DNA from: Candidatus Nomurabacteria bacterium GW2011_GWA1_36_15
Lineage (GTDB): Bacteria > Patescibacteriota > Minisyncoccia > Phycocordibacterales > UBA9973
DNA: 38,050 nt
Reading direction: 5' to 3'
NCBI GenBank assembly: GCA_000991415.1
Contig: LBRM01000012.1
Span: 1 to 38,050, forward strand
Below, one piece after another: positions 5,795 through 34,093 of the stretch. Below the pieces are notes generated by a model. It did no database searches and had not been told where the DNA came from. It saw only the letters and a list, made by a program, of their open reading frames with translations. The position numbers and the translations under genes are program-made. Every line of letters starts with the position of its first letter. Position 1 is the first letter of the stretch.

Positions 5795-6259
5795 TTACCT
5801 TCTTGATGTTCCAAAAAGATTTATCGTATCTAAACTGACGGTTGTGGTAATTGGAGGATCTGACGGAAGAGTGCAAGTTATCATTGTTTGCCCGCTATAT
5901 CTACCCAATATCAATTGTCTAATCGCTGGGGTGGTTCTGGTTCTTGGTGTTATGTAAGATGGTATGAAATAACTAGTCGGAGTGCCTGGAGGTGAACCGA
6001 TAGGAACGATAGAGATTGAAGTACCAAACAAGGGACAAATATAGCCGGCTGCTTCCATTTCTGCTATTTCTAAAGCTGGCATACTTATTATTCTTCCACC
6101 AAAAACTCCTCCAAAAAATGAATACGCAAAAACTATTCTAGCACCAACAAATACCAGAAAAATAATTAGCAAAATGAAAATAATGCTTTTTCTTGTCCCG
6201 TTAGAAATATTCTTATTTCTATTTATTATTTTATCCATACCACAATAGCCCATTAGCAT
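5795..6259 (-). CDS. Small membrane/exported protein, unknown function
   Basis: 154 aa with one strongly hydrophobic segment (SIIFILLIIFLVFVGARIVFAY) and then a Gly/Pro/Thr-rich extracytoplasmic part with two cysteines (GYICPLFG and ITCTLP). The start is uncertain. ATG 6259 (MLMGYC) lies in the loop of a hairpin, while ATG 6238 (MDKIINRNK) gives a more usual basic N-terminus before the membrane segment. An AAGGTG sequence, downstream of a TATAAT that overlaps the rsmA stop codon, could be the ribosome site, but it lies 15 nt from the first ATG. It heads the run of envelope genes down to base 1. I do not recognise the family. Confidence 0.65.
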   Translation of the reverse strand: MLMGYCGMDKIINRNKNISNGTRKSIIFILLIIFLVFVGARIVFAYSFFGGVFGGRIISMPALEIAEMEAAGYICPLFGTSISIVPIGSPPGTPTSYFIPSYITPRTRTTPAIRQLILGRYSGQTMITCTLPSDPPITTTVSLDTINLFGTSRR

Positions 6260-6272
6260 AATTTCTAATGGG
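6249..6272 (-). repeat. Perfect 8-bp hairpin holding a candidate start codon in its loop
   Basis: CCCATTAG and CTAATGGG flank an 8-nt loop containing the ATG of the first candidate start of the 154-aa gene. No T-tract follows on either side, so it is not a typical terminator. It could hide or present the start codon; this is inference. Confidence 0.45.
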
Positions 6273-6285
6273 ATTCACCTTTATA

Positions 6286-7056
6286 TTATAGCATCTTGGC
6301 AAGATCAATCCAATCTTTTAGTGTTAATTCCTCTGCTCTTTTATTCCCAAGTATGTCAAGGCCCGTCTTTGACATGCTTGATTTGAGGTTTGATGACAAT
6401 TTTTTTCTTTTGTGAGCAAAACCAGCACGGATTATTTCCCAAAATTTCTCTTCGTCTATATTATTTTCAATAAATATCTTTCTGGAGATGTTTTTTATGG
6501 CAATTACAGTTGAATCTACTTTTGGAGAAGGATAAAAATTTCCTCGGCTGACCTTGAATAAAATTTTAGGTTCGCCATAAGCTTTCACAGAAATAGAAAG
6601 CAGACTTTCCTTTCCATCTCGCGCCATTATTCTTTCCGCGACTTCTTTTTGGATCATTAAGGTCATGGATTTAGGTTTGTCCTTTTCGGAAAGAAATTTT
6701 TTTAATATAGCGCCAGTAATGTTATAAGGGATATTGGCAATTATTTTATAATTTCCAAAAAATTCGCAGTCCATTTTTTGGATATCAAATTTTAAAATAT
6801 CATCTTTTATTAAAATTAATTTTTTTTCTTCAATTTCCTTAGAAAATTTATTTTGCAAAAAATAAAAAAGTTCCCGGTCTTTTTCTACAGCAATCACATG
6901 ATTTGATTTTTCCAAAAGTTTTTCTGTTAGTATTCCCTTCCCTGGCCCAATTTCTAAAATAATATCGTCCTTAGAAACTTCTCCAGCCCCTACTATTCTA
7001 TTTAATACTGAAATAGATTTTAAAAAATTTTGTCCCAGGGATTTTTTTGGTTTCAT
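6286..7056 (-). CDS. rsmA: 16S rRNA (adenine(1518)-N6/adenine(1519)-N6) dimethyltransferase
   Basis: 256 aa, normal for KsgA/RsmA, which uses S-adenosylmethionine to dimethylate two adjacent adenosines near the 3' end of 16S rRNA late in 30S assembly. The N-terminal KKSLGQNFL motif, the SAM-binding EIGPGKGILTEKL and the catalytic NIPYN motif (residues about 110-114) are all present. The C-terminal helical domain includes GFAHKRKKLSSNL. It is downstream of uvrD on the same strand, separated by a palindromic repeat, and upstream of the envelope genes. No Shine-Dalgarno sequence is seen. A TATAAT overlapping its stop codon may start transcription of the next gene. Confidence 0.97.
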   Translation of the reverse strand: MKPKKSLGQNFLKSISVLNRIVGAGEVSKDDIILEIGPGKGILTEKLLEKSNHVIAVEKDRELFYFLQNKFSKEIEEKKLILIKDDILKFDIQKMDCEFFGNYKIIANIPYNITGAILKKFLSEKDKPKSMTLMIQKEVAERIMARDGKESLLSISVKAYGEPKILFKVSRGNFYPSPKVDSTVIAIKNISRKIFIENNIDEEKFWEIIRAGFAHKRKKLSSNLKSSMSKTGLDILGNKRAEELTLKDWIDLAKML

Positions 7057-7092
7057 ATTTTAAAGGAGTGAAACGACTATTAAAATTTGAAC

Positions 7093-7145
7093 TCTGTTAA
7101 ATAATTTTTGCAAAGCAAAAATTGTCCGAAGGACATTTAACAGGG
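7093..7145 (+). repeat. Three-way palindromic repeat, CTGTTAAAT family, copy 1
   Basis: An outer stem (CTGTTAAAT paired with a near-complementary right arm ending CAGGG) encloses two hairpins, AATTTTTGC-AAA-GCAAAAATT and GTCC-GAA-GGAC. The same design recurs at 32668-32727 and 33996-34055 in the opposite orientation. It lies between uvrD and rsmA. AT-rich flanks extend the pairing imperfectly to about 7064-7173. Confidence 0.8.
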
Positions 7146-7183
7146 TAAAGAAATTTATATTCATTTTATTCATTAAATTTCAT

Positions 7184-9313
7184 TTATATATAAATTGTTT
7201 TTATTTTATTATTTTCTCCCCGCCCGAACGACTGTCCAGTCGGGCAGGCTTCTTTTTCTAAAATATCACTCGGGATGTCCGAGATAAATTCGGATGGAGC
7301 ATTTATCTGACGCGAGCCAAAAATGGTGCGAAAATTCGCAAATGATAAAAACAATTTTTCTTTAGCGCGAGTAAGAGCAACATAAAAAAGTCTGCGTTCC
7401 TCTTCTCTGTCTTCGGCATTTTTTATTTCCTCATTTTTTTGGTGTGGAAAGAGCCCATCTTCTAGCCCGGTAATAAAGACGTGTCTGAACTCAAGCCCTT
7501 TTGAAGCATGAGCAGTCATTAATTTTATCCCGTTAGAGGTAGAGGGTCGCTGCGAGCCCTCGCGACCTCTAACGGGATTAGCTGTATTTATCATCAGACT
7601 ATCTTGGTCAGAAGCCAAAGATGCATCCTCCAAAAGTTTTTCTATCCCCTCTCCGTTTTTCAAATTATCATATTTTAGCGCAAGTGTTGCCAGTTCTTTT
7701 ATATTTTCTAATCTCTCCACCTCTTCTTCGGTTCCGGAAGAAAGTTCCATCTCAATTCCGGATTTTTTTACTGTGAATTTTACAATTTCAGACGCTTTTT
7801 CGTTTTTGATTTTATTTTTTATCTCTTCTAGTATTTTGTAAAAATTATCGATTTTGATTTTTGTTTTCGTTGGTAAATTTTCTGTGTCTTTTGCAAAAAT
7901 TTTAGCCAGCGTAGCCTTTCCTATTCCTCTTGCAGGAAAATTTATTGTTCTTTTTATATCAGAGAGACTTTCCGGATTAAGGGCTGCTCGAAGATAGGCA
8001 AGAGTGTCTTTAATTTCTTTTCTTTCAAAAAATTTAACTCCCAAAACTTGATATGGAATATTGTATCGAAGCATCGCTTCTTCCAACGCGCGCGATTGAA
8101 AATTTGCACGATACAAAATTGCAACCTCGGACAACAGTGGGGGTGCTACTTCTGCGGGGTCGCTGTCTCCGCGTGCTCGCGGAGCGCTGCCTCTCGGCCC
8201 GTCGGCCTGCGAGACACCCCGCAAAAGTACACCCTCACTGTTGTCCAGTATCTCTAAAATTTTTGTTGCTACGAAATTTGCTTCGTCGCTCTCGTCCAGC
8301 GCTTCATAAAAACCGATTTTTTCGCCGATTTTATTTTTGGTAAATAGATTTTTATCCGGTCTATATTTATTTTTCTTTATTATTTCATTTGCCGCCTCCA
8401 GTATGTTTTTAGTGGAGCGGTAATTTTCTTCCAGCAAAATTATTTTTACATCTTTGCCATAATCTTTTTCAAAACTTAAAATATTTTTTAAATTTGCCCC
8501 GCGCCAAGAATAAATATTTTGATCAGCGTCTCCAACCACGCAAATGTTTTTATTATTTTCCGAAAGCAAGCGGGACATTAGATATTGCACTTCATTGGTG
8601 TCCTGATATTCATCAACATGGATATAATCCCATTTTTTTTGGTAAATTTTTCTAATTTGCTCGTTTTCTTTTAATAGTTTAGTCGCCTTTAAAAGCAAGT
8701 CATCAAAATCCAAAGAATTTTCTTTTGCCTTTTTCCTTTCATATAAATTCCAAACTTGGGCTACTATTTTGCTTAGATAATCGCTTGCCCTTTCTTTGTA
8801 ATCTACCAGGTGTGTGAATTTTCCTTTTTCCCGACTAATTATGTTGCCTATTTTTTTGGGATCATATTGTTTTGGGTCTAACCCCATTTCTTTTGTTGCT
8901 TCTTTTATCAATGCCGTAGAATCTGATTCATCTAGAATAGTAAAATGTCTAGTTAGCCCTAAAATTTTTGCGTTTTCTTTTATGATATAAACCCCCAAAG
9001 AATGGAAAGTACTAACAAAAGGCATTTTTTCACTATCAAGATCGAACCTTGACAGTGATTTCTCGAGAACATTTTGCCCTTCGCTATTTAGTAAATGGTA
9101 GACCCTTTCCTTCATTTCTTTAGCTGCTTTGTTGGTAAAGGTAACAGCCAAGATTTTCTCTGGCGCTACCCCATTTTTTATTAGATTTAGTATCCTATGT
9201 GTTATGGTTTTAGTTTTTCCGGCACCTGCTCCAGCCACGATTAAAAGTGGTCCCTCCATATGGGTCGCTGCTTCTTTTTGTTTGCTATTGAGACCTGACA
9301 GATGATCTACCAC
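7184..9313 (-). CDS. uvrD: UvrD/PcrA-family superfamily-1 DNA helicase with palindrome-encoded insertions
   Basis: 709 aa from a GTG start; family members are usually about 650-750. It is an ATP-dependent 3'-5' helicase type used in repair and replication restart. Visible are the Q-motif/N-terminus (LNSKQKEAA), Walker A (GAGAGKT, residues about 28-34), motif Ia (FTNKAAKEMKERV), Walker B/motif II (DEYQDTN, about 236), motif III (DADQNIYSWRGA), motif IV (ENYRS), motif V (MTAHASKGLEF) and motif VI (ALTRAKEKL). Four segments absent from ordinary relatives coincide with DNA palindromes (residues about 85-94, 356-395, 578-595 and 688-698), all in frame. A TATATT box ends 6 nt before the GTG, so the mRNA may be leaderless. 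Whether PcrA, UvrD or Rep is the closest relative cannot be told by eye. Confidence 0.95.
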   Translation of the reverse strand: MVDHLSGLNSKQKEAATHMEGPLLIVAGAGAGKTKTITHRILNLIKNGVAPEKILAVTFTNKAAKEMKERVYHLLNSEGQNVLEKSLSRFDLDSEKMPFVSTFHSLGVYIIKENAKILGLTRHFTILDESDSTALIKEATKEMGLDPKQYDPKKIGNIISREKGKFTHLVDYKERASDYLSKIVAQVWNLYERKKAKENSLDFDDLLLKATKLLKENEQIRKIYQKKWDYIHVDEYQDTNEVQYLMSRLLSENNKNICVVGDADQNIYSWRGANLKNILSFEKDYGKDVKIILLEENYRSTKNILEAANEIIKKNKYRPDKNLFTKNKIGEKIGFYEALDESDEANFVATKILEILDNSEGVLLRGVSQADGPRGSAPRARGDSDPAEVAPPLLSEVAILYRANFQSRALEEAMLRYNIPYQVLGVKFFERKEIKDTLAYLRAALNPESLSDIKRTINFPARGIGKATLAKIFAKDTENLPTKTKIKIDNFYKILEEIKNKIKNEKASEIVKFTVKKSGIEMELSSGTEEEVERLENIKELATLALKYDNLKNGEGIEKLLEDASLASDQDSLMINTANPVRGREGSQRPSTSNGIKLMTAHASKGLEFRHVFITGLEDGLFPHQKNEEIKNAEDREEERRLFYVALTRAKEKLFLSFANFRTIFGSRQINAPSEFISDIPSDILEKEACPTGQSFGRGENNKIKTIYI
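7218..7249. repeat. In-frame palindrome near the 3' end of uvrD
   Basis: CCCGCCCGA and TCGGGCAGG are near-complementary around an inner CGACTG/CAGTCG stem. It is GC-rich against AT-rich surroundings. Read in uvrD it gives ACPTGQSFGRG just before the C-terminus. Confidence 0.75.
7527..7578. repeat. In-frame palindrome inside uvrD just before motif V
   Basis: Perfect 14-bp arms (ATCCCGTTAGAGGT and its complement) enclose a GC-rich hairpin (GAGGG TCGC / GCGA CCCTC). In the protein this is NPVRGREGSQRPSTSNGI, directly ahead of LMTAHASKGLEF, where ordinary helicases have a short linker. Confidence 0.85.
8129..8246. repeat. 118-bp GC-rich palindromic insertion translated inside uvrD
   Basis: The ends GGACAACAGTG and CACTGTTGTCC are perfectly complementary. 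The arms continue almost perfectly through GGGTG, TACTT and GCGGGGT for about 28 bp. Inside are two hairpins, one with CTCCGCG/CGCGGAG stems, giving a three-way junction. It encodes about 39 residues (EGVLLRGVSQADGPRGSAPR and on) placed just before the conserved EVAILYRAN, a surface-loop position. Its base composition is sharply GC-richer than the flanks. Confidence 0.88.
9030..9058. repeat. Short in-frame palindrome inside uvrD
   Basis: TCACT-a-TCAAG and CTTGA-c-AGTGA form an interrupted stem with a 7-nt loop. It encodes SLSRFDLDSEK immediately before the conserved FVSTFHSLG. It may be an older, shorter insert of the same kind. Confidence 0.5.
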
Positions 9314-9334
9314 TCATTAAATATAACACAAAAC

Positions 9335-9661
9335 TCAGTTTGTTTGTTCCAGTACTTCAGCTGATTCTTTTCTAAAATTTTCCGATTCCTCGACTACAAT
9401 TTGCAGGAAATTAGGAACTTTTTCAAAGAAAAAGTCTAGTAAGATATCAGCGTCCACATGGTTGTCCATCATTTTTTCGTATTCTGCTAAATCCTTTTCG
9501 TTTAGCGCTGGCAAAGATTTTATGAGGACAGATTGAAATATAATATTGCCGATGCGAGTAATAGCCTCTTCTCGTTTTTCTTCCGGAAGTTTTTCTATCT
9601 CAAACAATTCGATAATATTTTTACGGATCTCGTTTTTATTTGTTTGCTTGTTTGTGTTCAT
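9335..9661 (-). CDS. Small helical protein, possibly DUF5663-like
   Basis: 108 aa, highly charged, predicted all helical, with no signal peptide or membrane segment. The pattern ELFEIEKLPEEKREEAITRI followed by GNIIFQSVLIKSLPALNEKD resembles the small DUF5663-type proteins I recall from candidate phyla; this is from memory and unverified. It lies 22 nt upstream of uvrD and 27 nt downstream of the 439-aa gene on the same strand, so co-transcription is likely. Its role is unknown. Confidence 0.65.
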   Translation of the reverse strand: MNTNKQTNKNEIRKNIIELFEIEKLPEEKREEAITRIGNIIFQSVLIKSLPALNEKDLAEYEKMMDNHVDADILLDFFFEKVPNFLQIVVEESENFRKESAEVLEQTN

Positions 9662-9687
9662 AATTTTTTTTAGTTAGTTAATAATAA

Positions 9688-11007
9688 TTATAGCTTAACT
9701 TTTTCTATATAGGTAATTCCATTTGTATCTACTGTTGCTTTCAGTAATATTCCTTTAGATGCTTCTATTTGTAAAACATGTGTCATATATTCAATATTAG
9801 TTTCGGGAGATTGGAATATCGTAGTACTTCTTGGATGAATGTCTGTAATTTTTTCAAGCGCTTGGATATAAGAAATAACAGGTTTGTATGTTTGATTTAC
9901 GGTGTCTAGGTGTTGTTTTATTGTTTCCTCAGCAGTTAATTGTATGTGTTTAAATACTTCTGGATTTTCAGGCGAAATACTTTCTATGTTATTTTGATAG
10001 ACTTCATTTACTTTTCTTAACACTTCTTCTGAAAGATGATATGGATTATTTATAGATTCTTGAGATATAATATTTTCTTCCCCTTCTGGTTTTGAAGTGT
10101 CTTCATATTCAGTTCTGGTTTCGTTTTCTGGGGTGTCCTCGTATTCACTTATTATTTGTTTGTTAATATTCGGTTCTACGGGAGAATTAATATCTTCTTT
10201 TATTTCAGGAACATTATCTATCTCATTTGATTTTGTGTAACTGCTTTCATATTTATCTACTTTTTCTTCAAATTTGTCTCCTTCATGGTGGGTCTCAAGT
10301 ATTTCTCCTCCAACGGTTTTTTCTTCAACCAAAATATGTCCGTCTTCTATTTTAATTTCGTAAGCTATCTTGTCTGCTTCCGCCACTCTTACTTCATTTC
10401 CAGTGTTGTCGGCATAACCTTCCTTAATAGCTATAATATGAGCTTCTCGCCCAGCAAATTCATGCAAAACTTTTGTATCACTTGGATCTCCCTTAAATCC
10501 TAATTCTTTTGCCAGTTCCTGATTATTTTCAATTTGTCTAATAAAAGCGTGTTCCACTCCTTCTCCTTTGTGAACAGTTGCGTCTTTTAATTTTATTTCT
10601 TCTTCTATTTTTGCTTTCAGCTCTTCTAAATGTTTTTGTTCTTGCTGTTGCTTGAGTTTTACTTGTCTTTCCATTTCCTCTTTTAGTTTTGTTTCTTTTT
10701 GCTGTTTTTCAAATTCAATATCTTGTTTTCCTTTAGTCTCAATTTCAGCATTATGATGATATACCGCCATGGTGCCGAGTCCTGCAGCAATGATAGCAGC
10801 CCCTCCTATAGTGCTCTTTAGGAGTTTTAGGTTTTTTACTTTTGTCTTACTTTCCTCCGTGTTTTCATTTTCAAGTTTCTTTATTTTGTTATCAAAAACT
10901 CCATTAAGGATTCTTCTAAATGCATATCCTCCAACTCCAATGAGTGGTACGGCTAATCCTCCAGACAACAAAGCGGAAAATCCTATTCCTGCCCACAGAT
11001 GCCACAT
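9688..11007 (-). CDS. Membrane/coiled-coil protein, probably the 3' part of a frameshifted gene
   Basis: 439 aa. Residues 1-35 (LWAGIGFSALLSGGLAVPLI) and 66-86 (STIGGAAIIAAGLGTMAVYH) are hydrophobic and Gly-rich, like membrane segments. A Gln/Lys/Glu coiled coil (about 95-140) and a long acidic linker follow, then a C-terminal globular part. Its first 31 codons overlap the upstream 333-aa ORF in another frame, an overlap far longer than usual for bacteria. A TGA lies in this frame two codons before the ATG, so the ORF cannot simply extend upstream. I read it as either the second half of one disrupted or frameshifted gene of about 740 codons, or a translationally coupled partner. No family is recognised. 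Confidence 0.65.
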   Translation of the reverse strand: MWHLWAGIGFSALLSGGLAVPLIGVGGYAFRRILNGVFDNKIKKLENENTEESKTKVKNLKLLKSTIGGAAIIAAGLGTMAVYHHNAEIETKGKQDIEFEKQQKETKLKEEMERQVKLKQQQEQKHLEELKAKIEEEIKLKDATVHKGEGVEHAFIRQIENNQELAKELGFKGDPSDTKVLHEFAGREAHIIAIKEGYADNTGNEVRVAEADKIAYEIKIEDGHILVEEKTVGGEILETHHEGDKFEEKVDKYESSYTKSNEIDNVPEIKEDINSPVEPNINKQIISEYEDTPENETRTEYEDTSKPEGEENIISQESINNPYHLSEEVLRKVNEVYQNNIESISPENPEVFKHIQLTAEETIKQHLDTVNQTYKPVISYIQALEKITDIHPRSTTIFQSPETNIEYMTHVLQIEASKGILLKATVDTNGITYIEKVKL

Positions 11008-15539: not shown

Positions 15540-17108
15540 ATGGATACTTCAAAAAAAATAATATTAAAAATTCCGAAAGAAGTCTCACATATAATAAATA
15601 CACTTGAGAACAAGGGTTTTAAAGCGTATTTAGTTGGTGGCTGTGTTCGAGATCTTTTAATGGACAGGGAACCGAAAGATTGGGATATAACAACTGGTGC
15701 TAAGCCGGACCAGATTATTGAACTTTTTAAGAAAACAGTGTATGAGAATGTATTTGGAACAGTAGCTGTTATAAATGAAGATGTTTCTTGTGAAACGTTG
15801 CGTCAAATAGAAGTTACCCCATATAGAATTGAAGCAAAATATAGCGATTTTAGGCATCCGGATAAAGTAAAATTTAGCGATAATTTGGAAGATGATCTAA
15901 AAAGACGTGACTTTACAATAAATGCTATGGCTTGTAGAAATGGACAGGTAACTGATATATTTGGTGGTTTAAAGGACATAAAAGACAAGATATTGAAGGC
16001 AGTAGGGGATCCCGATGACCGTTTTAAAGAAGATTCACTTAGAATGCTTCGGGCGGTACGTATCGCTTTACAACTTGGTTTTTCTGTGTCTTATGAAAGC
16101 AGTGAAAGTATTTTGAGAAATTCAAATTTAATAAAAAAAATATCATCTGAAAGAATTCGTGATGAGCTTTCAAAAATAATTATGTCACCGAATCCATCTA
16201 TTGGGATGGTGATGCTTCAGAAGTTTGGTTTGTTGAAAAATATAATTCCAGAATTAGAAGAAGGGATCGGGTGTGAGCAGGCAGGTGAGCATATTTATGA
16301 TGTTTGGGAGCATTTGCTTCATGCCTTGCAGCATTCGGCGGAGAAAAATTGGTCTTTGGAAGTGAGACTAGCTGCACTTTTTCATGATATTGGGAAACCA
16401 AAAACCAGAAGGTTAGCTTCACCTGATACTTTTGCTCAGGTCCTCGGGTCGCCTGTACGGGATTCTAAAAATGAACAGGCTCAACCAGACCATTCGCAAA
16501 AGCATACAGGTTCAGCTAAAAAAAGATTTACTTTTTATGGCCATGAAGTGATTAGCGCGCGAATGGCGAAAAAAATAATGGAACGATTAAAATTTTCCAG
16601 AAAAGAAATTGATTTAGTGGAAAAATTAGTTCGCAATCATATGTTTTTCTCTGATACTGAATTGATTACTCTTTCTGCGGTGCGGAGAATTGTCACAAAA
16701 GTCGGGGTAGAAAATATTTGGTTGTTAATGAATGTTCGTGAATGCGATAGGGTAGGAATGAAGAAAAAAGAAACACCATATCGCTTGCGAAAATATTTTG
16801 CCATGATAGAGGAAGCACTACATAGTCCAATTTCCGTTGGCCAGCTTAAAATTGACGGAGAATTTATGATAAAAAAACTTAATATAAAACCGGGACCTCG
16901 CATGGGATGGATTTTGCATGCTCTTTTGGAAGAGGTTTTAGATGATCCGACTAAAAATGAAGAAAAACATCTTTCAGAACTAGTTAGATCACTAAATCTT
17001 TTGCCGGATGGGGCGTTGAAAGTGTTGGGAGATAGGGGGAAAGAAAAAAAAGAAGAATTAGAGGAACAAGAGATAGAAAAACTTCATTTGAAACATGGAG
17101 TGAGGTAG
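15540..17108 (+). CDS. cca: CCA-adding enzyme / tRNA nucleotidyltransferase with HD domain
   Basis: I prefer ATG 15540 (522 aa) over the tracked GTG 15528, which lies inside tRNA-Arg. The enzyme adds or repairs the 3' CCA of tRNAs using CTP and ATP, needed here because three of four local tRNAs lack encoded CCA. The nucleotidyltransferase head has YLVGGCVRDLL and the catalytic DWD, and RRDFTINAMA follows. The RNA-binding region has DDRFKEDSLRMLRAVR. An HD domain (ALFHDIGKPKTR) is near residue 285. A palindromic insert adds about 36 residues (ASPDTFAQVLGSPVR and on) between that motif and FTFYGHEVISARMAKK. With only 7 nt after the tRNA there is no Shine-Dalgarno site. Poly(A) polymerase activity cannot be excluded by eye. 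Confidence 0.93.
   Translation: MDTSKKIILKIPKEVSHIINTLENKGFKAYLVGGCVRDLLMDREPKDWDITTGAKPDQIIELFKKTVYENVFGTVAVINEDVSCETLRQIEVTPYRIEAKYSDFRHPDKVKFSDNLEDDLKRRDFTINAMACRNGQVTDIFGGLKDIKDKILKAVGDPDDRFKEDSLRMLRAVRIALQLGFSVSYESSESILRNSNLIKKISSERIRDELSKIIMSPNPSIGMVMLQKFGLLKNIIPELEEGIGCEQAGEHIYDVWEHLLHALQHSAEKNWSLEVRLAALFHDIGKPKTRRLASPDTFAQVLGSPVRDSKNEQAQPDHSQKHTGSAKKRFTFYGHEVISARMAKKIMERLKFSRKEIDLVEKLVRNHMFFSDTELITLSAVRRIVTKVGVENIWLLMNVRECDRVGMKKKETPYRLRKYFAMIEEALHSPISVGQLKIDGEFMIKKLNIKPGPRMGWILHALLEEVLDDPTKNEEKHLSELVRSLNLLPDGALKVLGDRGKEKKEELEEQEIEKLHLKHGVR
16413..16519. repeat. In-frame palindromic insertion inside cca
   Basis: TTAGCT..ACCTG...CTTTTGC at the left is complementary to GCAAAAGC..CAGGT..AGCTAA at the right, with small mismatches. 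An inner stem GCCTGT/ACAGGC and GGTC/GACC pairing continue the hairpin. It encodes a segment absent from ordinary CCA enzymes, between the HD motif and FYGHE. Diverged arms suggest an old insertion. Confidence 0.75.
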
Positions 17109-17201
17109 AAATATAAAATTCAAAAGATTTCTGAGCCTTCGCCCTCGGAGACAAGAGGACAGGGGACCCACGACTCTTTAAATCTTTTGAATTTTATATT
17201 T
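17109..17201. repeat. 49-nt-core long-armed palindrome, copy 1 (bidirectional terminator position)
   Basis: Perfect 22-bp arms (AAATATAAAATTCAAAAGAT and on; 17109-17130 and 17180-17201) enclose a 49-nt core starting CTGAGCCTTCGCCCTCGGAG. It begins directly after the cca stop and ends before the convergent acylphosphatase-like gene. The core recurs at 19645 and 23899 with different arms. Confidence 0.92.
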
Positions 17202-17208
17202 TTATGAT

Positions 17209-19360: not shown

Positions 19361-19624
19361 ATGTTAAATACAAAGAAAAAGCAACGGATTATAAAGAAAA
19401 ATCAAATTCATGAGAAAGATACAGGTTCTTCTGAGGTACAAGTGGCTGTTTTATCTACCCAAATAGAGGAATTGGCAAAACATTTGAAGAAACATAAAAA
19501 AGATAATAATTCTCGCCGGGGACTTATTAAAATGGTAGCAGACAGACGCACCCATTTGAAATACTTGGAACGCAAAGACAAGACTCGTTACAACGCTTTG
19601 ATGAAGAAGATGAATCTTGTATAA
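19361..19624 (+). CDS. rpsO: 30S ribosomal protein S15
   Basis: 87 aa, the usual S15 length. The family signature is clear: HEKDTGSSEVQVAVLSTQI, LAKHLKKHKKDNNSRRGL and the C-terminal RRTHLKYLERKDKTRYNALM. S15 binds the 16S rRNA central domain early in 30S assembly. Its promoter places the transcription start at the ATG, so the leader-based autoregulation known in E. coli cannot operate in that form. The common rpsO-pnp order is kept, but a palindrome, an NYN-domain gene and two more hairpins now lie between them. The stop codon is inside the left arm of the palindrome. Confidence 0.98.
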   Translation: MLNTKKKQRIIKKNQIHEKDTGSSEVQVAVLSTQIEELAKHLKKHKKDNNSRRGLIKMVADRRTHLKYLERKDKTRYNALMKKMNLV

Positions 19625-19719
19625 AAAAACAGCATAAGTAATTTCTGAGCCTTCGCCCTCGGAGTCATAAGGACAGGGAACCCACGACTCTTAAAATTAC
19701 TTAATGCTGTTTTTTATGT
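19621..19719. repeat. 49-nt-core long-armed palindrome, copy 2
   Basis: Arms ATAAAAAAACAGCATAAGTA (and on) and its complement (one bulged base) enclose the 49-nt core at 19645-19693. The core differs from copy 3 at only 2 positions. The flanking A and T tracts make it a bidirectional terminator candidate after rpsO. The promoter for the next gene overlaps or abuts the right arm. Confidence 0.92.
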
Positions 19720-23862: not shown

Positions 23863-23874
23863 AAAAAATAATAT

Positions 23875-23970
23875 AAATTGTGAAAATTTAAAAAATTTCT
23901 GAGCCTTCGCCCTCGGAGTCAAGAGGACAGGGAACCCACGACTCTTAAAATTTTTTAATTTTCACAATTT
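23875..23970. repeat. 49-nt-core long-armed palindrome, copy 3
   Basis: Arms AAATTGTGAAAATTTAAAAA (and on; 23875-23898) and the complement 23948-23970, with one bulge, enclose the core at 23899-23947. It sits between the DksA-like gene and comM. The weak comM promoter (TTAAAA-N17-TTTAAT, -10 ending 6 nt before ATG) overlaps its right arm. Confidence 0.92.
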
Positions 23971-23979
23971 AATCAAATC

Positions 23980-32628: not shown

Positions 32629-32667
32629 AAATAATTTTCTTGAGCGAAAGCGATTAGAAAATTTTTA

Positions 32668-32727
32668 CCCTGTTAAATGAAATATTTTATATTTCAAATT
32701 TTGCTTTGCAAAATTTATTTAACAGGG
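32668..32727 (-). repeat. Three-way palindromic repeat, CCCTGTTAAAT family, copy 2
   Basis: CCCTGTTAAAT and ATTTAACAGGG pair perfectly and enclose two hairpins, one with TTTTGC/GCAAAA as in copy 1. Imperfect outer pairing (TGAGCGAAAGCGA against TCGCTACACTCA) extends it to about 32641-32753. It lies between nusA and hppA. Confidence 0.85.
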
Positions 32728-32774
32728 TTTTTAAAATATACTCGCTACACTCATTATTTTAATAAATAATAATT

Positions 32775-33956: not shown

Positions 33957-33995
33957 GACTATTTAAAATGAACAGAGCGATTATTTAAATTGTCA

Positions 33996-34055
33996 CCCTG
34001 TTAAATAAAATCCTTCGGATTTTAGCTTTTGTTTATAAAAAGCTATTTAACAGGG
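33996..34055 (-). repeat. Three-way palindromic repeat, CCCTGTTAAAT family, copy 3
   Basis: The outer stem CCCTGTTAAAT/ATTTAACAGGG is identical to copy 2. Inner hairpins AAATCC-TTC-GGATTT and AGCTTTT..AAAAGCT differ in sequence but keep the position and, for one, the CCGAAGG tip of copy 1 in reverse orientation. Imperfect outer arms starting TGAAC extend it to about 33969-34082. It lies just upstream of nusA. Confidence 0.85.
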
Positions 34056-34093
34056 TTAATAAAATTATATTCACTTCGTTCATTAATTTTTAA

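Follow-up and report, generated by a model that had tools for sequence, protein, structure and literature searches.

Palindromic elements with unrelated cores lie in frame within uvrD and other housekeeping genes of a Patescibacteria genus

The gene for a UvrD/PcrA-type helicase in Candidatus Nomurabacteria bacterium GW2011_GWA1_36_15 carries four palindromic DNA segments that leave its reading frame open, which raises the question of what these segments are and how they come to lie inside such a gene. The gene is part of the window analyzed here, by which we mean the whole stretch of 38,050 nucleotides of contig LBRM01000012.1. An earlier note on this DNA had described the palindromes as a phenomenon of one helicase gene. 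The phenomenon is real there, but many housekeeping genes across the genus are affected, and what uvrD shows is only part of a system that extends over the whole genus. In this study, we compared 36 genomes, the organism's own and 35 searched genomes of the same genus (G and L numbers below are our labels for genomes and loci). Judged by UvrD, the named genomes nearest to this organism are Candidatus Nomurabacteria MAGs. We consider it probable that the segments are small nonautonomous palindromic mobile elements of unrelated core families, which entered permissive loops in frame and are translated and tolerated. Translation is inferred here, and we have no transposition, transcript, or peptide data.

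Four palindromes within uvrD

All four palindromes were found where the earlier note had placed them, in the minus-strand open reading frame of the helicase gene (Table 1). Its view that they are in-frame additions is borne out by an alignment of UvrD orthologues, in which the proteins without a palindrome also lack the residues that it encodes; the refuting outcome that it had named, orthologues sharing these residues as ordinary loops without any palindrome, was not met. By sequence, and without a three-dimensional model, the inserts adjoin rather than interrupt helicase motifs, as had been claimed, and lie in the gap between motifs Ia and Ib, after motif IV, before motif V, and in the C-terminal tail. 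The best solved relative of this UvrD is PcrA (1pjr), in which the counterpart of the position of insert 3, after motif IV, is a loop of a few residues (~348-353). That the insert loops are exposed on the protein surface is an inference.

Table 1. Features of the window: the helicase gene, its palindromic inserts, and intergenic elements of family I
Feature	Position	Strand	Description
uvrD/pcrA-type helicase gene	7184..9313	-	709 aa; carries all four inserts; PF00580 (7.5e-86), PF13361 (1.2e-58)
Insert 1	7218..7249	-	REP-like hairpin; C-terminal tail (~688-699); peptide ACPTGQSFGRG
Insert 2	7527..7578	-	Family K-type palindrome; ATCCCGTTAGA ends; directly before motif V (~576-595)
Insert 3	8129..8246	-	118 bp; family A element; after motif IV (~360-394); ~30-bp arms; core model match 8149-8226
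Insert 4	9030..9058	-	Short hairpin; between motifs Ia and Ib (residues ~77-97)
Family I element, intergenic	17106..17204	+	Site-specific complementary arms
Family I element, intergenic	19621..19717	+	Site-specific complementary arms
Family I element, intergenic	23874..23971	+	Site-specific complementary arms

The inserts are palindromic and in frame, as first described, but they are not one kind. Because they match family A (insert 3), family K (insert 2), REP-like hairpins (insert 1), and a hairpin adjacent to a Y1 gene (insert 4), we assign them to four different repeat classes. Insert 3 encodes approximately DNSEGVLLRGVSQADGPRGSAPRARGDSDPAEVAPPLLS and matches the family A model R1 with an E value of 3.1e-22. 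The paired ATCCCGTTAGAA termini of insert 2, characteristic of family K, occur at four further places in a 238-kb sample of the genome, and a similar insert is present at the same site in the UvrD of G025. Hairpins resembling insert 1 were found at L243:10225 and L244:16856; the insert itself is missing from the UvrD tails of other species, two of which (G004 and G033) have a different hairpin there. Insert 4 weakly resembles a hairpin beside a Y1 transposase gene. When the DNA folding of each palindrome region was compared with 200 dinucleotide shuffles, the z scores were -9.5 for insert 3 (region 8120-8255), -5.9 for insert 2 (7518-7588), -3.4 for insert 4 (9020-9068), and -2.6 for insert 1 (7210-7260). 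Inserts 1 and 4 are short, statistically the weakest of the four, and modest when taken alone, and we are less certain of them.

A wider search showed that the cores of these palindromes recur in other genes and in intergenic DNA. In the same 238-kb sample, taken from a genome of 617 kb, we counted 28 strong hairpins compared with 1 in a shuffled copy; 9 are inside open reading frames, 6 at their edges, and 13 outside. In 200 kb of a control genome from the same order, there were 5, compared with 2 after shuffling. This census requires gap-free arms and therefore undercounts bulged elements such as those of family A.

Cores shared among genes, sites, and species

Family A was modeled from 14 UvrD copies, which gave 78 positions and 27 pairs. 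The core is laid out as GGGGTGTCTCGCAGGCYGACGRGCCGAGAGGCAGCGCT, a stem whose sequence is free and whose loop is AGCA, and AGACAGCGACCCC, forming two hairpins on one stem, and compensated double changes at 11 of the 27 pairs confirm the internal three-way junction that had been proposed for the 118-bp insert. Matches to the model occur in 33 of the 36 genomes. The organism's own genome has two strong matches, in uvrD and in tgt (G000:C4:50464), and two weak ones. Among 59 distinct strong copies in the genus, 54 are well within open reading frames of at least 190 codons; some copies in G007 lie outside long reading frames. The host genes, identified with NCBIfam and Pfam, encode TsaD, PolA, LeuRS, CCA nucleotidyltransferase, UvrB, MnmA, Tgt, Fmt, IleRS, RecG, Def, a pseudouridine synthase, and UvrD, about 13 kinds in total. 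One core is found at different sites and in different genes in two orientations, each of which is read in a single phase (GVSQADGPRGSAPRARGDSDP or GSLSPRARGALPLGSSACETP). Across the core and inner arms, a stop codon falls in the used phase in 4 of the 59 copies, compared with 57 of 118 for the other two phases, and this avoidance of stops is the indirect evidence from which we infer that the open frame is really translated. The tgt genes of G000 and G006 carry family A in opposite orientations with nearly identical arms, as if the element had been flipped in place.

In the UvrD alignment, the largest insertion site, that of insert 3, is bounded by conserved VATKILEILD and LSEVAIL (residues ~356-396). 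Orthologues differ in whether it is filled: a palindromic insert is present in 27 of the 31 genus UvrDs that were scored, and a short linker alone is found in the other 4 and in nine genomes from other families of the order. The site is also occupied by different cores, of at least six unrelated types (A in both orientations, B, C, D, J, and one-offs), and three species have a tandem pair of elements there. Core types were labeled by eye, so the counts per type are approximate; the insert of G030, which could be labeled B or E, was assigned by nhmmer to family B on the opposite strand. The site between motifs Ia and Ib likewise holds family A in G019, G024, and G025, family B in G003, G022, and G028, and family C in G005, G012, G017, and G031. 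On a UvrD tree from which the insert columns were left out, and which has modest support on many inner branches, the types at the largest site require 17 changes (minimum, 8; mean after shuffling, 23.0). Family A alone requires 10 changes compared with 10.5 after shuffling and is thus scattered across species. Sister genomes often differ at this site (G003 with A and G022 with J, G000 with A and G028 with D, G004 with A and G033 with D, G024 empty and G025 with A). When we looked for a nearly identical pair of filled and empty genomes, no pair exceeded ~82% in uvrD.

Families I, B, C, D, H, and J each combine a conserved core with site-specific complementary arms. Family I has at least 10 copies in the organism's own genome, three of which are in the window (Table 1), and its core is also found in coding DNA, in frame in the mnmA genes of four species. 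The mnmA loop contains an insert, mostly palindromic, in nearly all of the 21 genus genomes in which it could be parsed; in G011 there is a short linker instead. In the sampled part of the organism's own genome, hairpin inserts are also present in ligA, leuS (twice), smc, mnmA, and a gene resembling FAD-linked oxidases.

Outside the genus, among 286 genomes sampled from the whole phylum, strong matches to family A are confined to the order. G081, which belongs to another family of the order, has about ten nearly identical copies, mostly outside long reading frames, with conserved 30-bp arms (CTGTCCGGGGAAAATTCTCTTTTTGGGGG and its complement); its uvrD has a family A core at the largest site as well. 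As a mostly intergenic repeat with near-identical copies and conserved arms, family A is MITE-like in this genome, where it is short, is multicopy, and has inverted ends at unrelated loci. Two of the G081 copies (L280 and L281) have a GC-rich hairpin (CCTGCCCGCCGAAGCCTCGGCGCAGGCGGGG) nested within the core.

Several other repeats and insertions were observed along the way. Another palindromic repeat, which is intergenic, has ACCCTGTTAAAT and ATTTAACAGGGT as its ends and inner hairpins that vary; it occurs at 7087-7136, 32659-32737, and 33987-34065 of the window. Near the contig ends, 222-859 and 37145-38050 contain internal direct repeats of 87 to 148 nt that are 72 to 80% alike, as in tandem-repeat proteins. 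The UvrDs of G013 (L035:1755-2855) and G020 (L037:2580-3680) contain a 367-aa intein (PF14890, E=1.4e-12 in G013) that lies shortly before the GDADQ motif; it is in frame and is a different kind of insert from the palindromes. By eye only, we noted a Nudix-like segment inside LeuRS of G004 (L087) and a histidine-phosphatase-like segment inside IleRS of G027 (L097).

Complementary arms and competing explanations

The ~30-bp arms of in-gene copies vary by site and remain complementary. Between orthologous copies, differences in which both sides have changed and still pair outnumber one-sided differences by 913 to 287; these are comparisons between pairs of sequences and not events. Arm likeness is 0.55 within one locus and 0.43 between loci. 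At the largest site, arms are more alike in more closely related species even when the cores differ (mean z of 0.73, 1.31, and 1.80 by class of closeness), a modest trend. Arms derived solely from the target are ruled out by the conserved arms of the G081 copies, and arms derived solely from the element are an unsatisfactory account, given the higher likeness within loci and the following of host relatedness across cores. Most in-gene family A copies have an extra base ~14 positions out in the element's 3' arm, which is absent from the G081 copies and which we infer makes the length of the element a multiple of three.

The explanation that we favor is that of MITE-like or REP-like elements of several unrelated core families, which would insert between genes. 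In this genus, they would also have entered permissive loops of housekeeping proteins many times without disturbing the frame. The inserts would then be translated as extra loops and tolerated, and that they persist through tolerance rather than benefit is our inference. A Y1 (IS200/RAYT-type) transposase may move at least the short REP-like class. Complementarity of the arms would be kept mainly by template-switch palindrome correction, a role that is inferred and unproven, and selection on the folded single strand may contribute in family A. The fixed arms of the G081 copies, set against the variable arms of in-gene copies, count against this explanation, as the route between the two states has not been seen.

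The enzyme that moves the elements is likewise unproven. Y1 genes (IS200-type, PF01797) are present in 28 of the 36 genomes, with five in the organism's own. One of them (L240:16232-16953) has the hairpin TTGGGAGCTCGGCTCCCAA on both flanks and one copy within its reading frame, and the same hairpin is doubled inside leuS (L237:6487-6526), so a RAYT-type mobilizer is likely for the short hairpin class, by inference. A short hairpin flanking a Y1 gene, the mark of REP/RAYT systems, was not seen for family A, to which no transposase could be tied. Y1 as the sole mobilizer was rejected, since its presence does not track family A and genomes without Y1 matches, such as G008 and G022, still have the family.

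More tentatively, a hairpin in a coding loop could itself be the landing site, persisting with the host lineage as unrelated mobile cores swap at its apex and host-derived arms are rematched by template switching. We keep this possibility open, doubtful as it is, because of the modest likeness of largest-site arms in closer species despite differing cores. If true, it would amount to an insertion system that is guided by structure and preserves the frame, with coding hairpins serving as docks.

It is improbable that the palindromes originate and lengthen where they stand, through template-switch mutagenesis of variable loops and without any mobile element. Site-specific and co-changing arms, their tracking of host relatedness under different cores, and perfect palindromes without a core in the mnmA loops of G004, G020, and G034 speak for such growth. 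Against it, conserved cores turn up again at unrelated loci, facing either way, and in a second family of the order. Template-switch mutagenesis is nonetheless likely as the process behind arm maintenance and the coreless palindromes.

The strong covariation, and the retention of the same sites in many species, might also suggest functional host mRNA structures under selection for regulation, decay, or translational pausing. We regard this as very unlikely, since unrelated cores replace each other at one site, some species have none, and family A occurs in either orientation. Moreover, mismatches on the element's own strand in family A are G.T in 67 cases and A.C in 17 (P = 3.5e-8, which is optimistic because the copies share descent). 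The bias is found in sense (28:12) and antisense (39:5) genes alike, which suggests that G.T is tolerated in the element's own folded single strand and not in the host mRNA; for family A, a host mRNA structure is accordingly disfavored. Families I, B, C, and D showed no such strand bias, and we do not generalize it beyond family A.

Small structured mobile elements that interrupt genes are known in some yeast mitochondria as bypassing elements. The formal likeness to these raises the idea that the inserts are spliced from the RNA or skipped by the ribosome, leaving a protein without them. This is hardly tenable in view of lengths that keep the frame and a used phase that is almost free of stops when the other phases are not; in addition, an Rfam search of positions 6000-10000, covering the uvrD region, found no family above its gathering score and no known intron or ribozyme. 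Ordinary variable loops with chance palindromes, or assembly artifacts, can be dismissed, and for inserts 2 and 3 are refuted: the inserts do occupy variable loops, and numbers 1 and 4 are modest alone, but the shuffle controls, the recurrence in dozens of separately assembled genomes, and the covariation all speak against them.

Relation to known palindromic repeats and implications

Rickettsia palindromic elements (RPEs; Ogata et al. 2000, 2002) are long stem-loops of ~100 to 150 bp in several families, as described in PMC2229807. They occur both between genes and, with the frame kept, within conserved protein genes of a reduced genome, as here. The protein-coding palindromic repeats of Wolbachia (Ogata et al. 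2005, cited in PMC2229807) are likewise in a reduced genome and in a different phylum. RPEs lose repeat identity over time (PMC6649704). The earlier note had likened the uvrD inserts to RPEs in another organism, and this likeness holds up: the repeats are self-complementary and multicopy, their cores recur elsewhere, and they lie in frame in conserved genes whose orthologues have empty sites. The Nomurabacteria elements work like the protein-coding palindromic elements of Rickettsia and Wolbachia and are a separate set of families in Patescibacteria, a statement made without comparison to RPE sequences. Apart from the difference in phylum, the same loops here hold unrelated cores in different species, elements at one site can face either way, and arms that are specific to their site still complement each other.

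Coding palindromes with arms that evolve in concert, for which template switching was proposed, are found in the mitochondria of Nematomorpha (PMC6649704). These are also long inverted repeats inside genes with coevolving arms; however, they have no shared mobile core and both arms encode conserved protein regions (PMC6649704), whereas in Nomurabacteria the same conserved cores are found in different genes, and variable loops hold most of the inserts. REP/RAYT systems consist of short hairpins beside Y1 transposase genes, some of them intragenic and many in replication and repair genes, and different REPs sometimes occupy about the same site of a gene, as in recB of Xanthomonas (PMC3733652). 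REPs are 20 to 40 bp long with GTAG or CGTC tags (PMC3733652), unlike family A and similar elements, which are 90 to 130 bp long with structured cores and in which we noticed no tag, without a systematic scan. Bacterial MITEs such as ERIC, RUP, and Correia elements (PMC2229807) are similar in size (~100 to 200 bp), in their inverted arms, in the lack of coding capacity of their own, and in the intergenic multicopy form seen in G081. They differ in that the elements described here occur strongly within genes and in frame, their in-gene arms differ between copies, and no parent transposon has been identified, nor a target-site duplication with filled and empty genomes no closer than ~82% in uvrD. 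We found no report of such elements in Patescibacteria in the literature, as far as open-license papers go. What is new is the combination of three features: different species carry unrelated cores at one and the same loop, replacement is frequent, and the arms match each other but vary by site.

Collectively, our results suggest that translated selfish palindromic DNA is pervasive in a reduced Patescibacteria genus and not a rickettsial oddity alone, and functional enzymes with core roles in replication, repair, and tRNA metabolism appear to contain translated selfish DNA. As a caution for annotation, a loop in a Patescibacteria protein that is long and poorly conserved may be a repeat. Because the elements occur in many species, at shared sites, in two orientations, and with several kinds of core, comparative tests become possible of how coding palindromes enter genes, why their arms stay matched, and to what extent mobile hairpins drive the evolution of protein loops.
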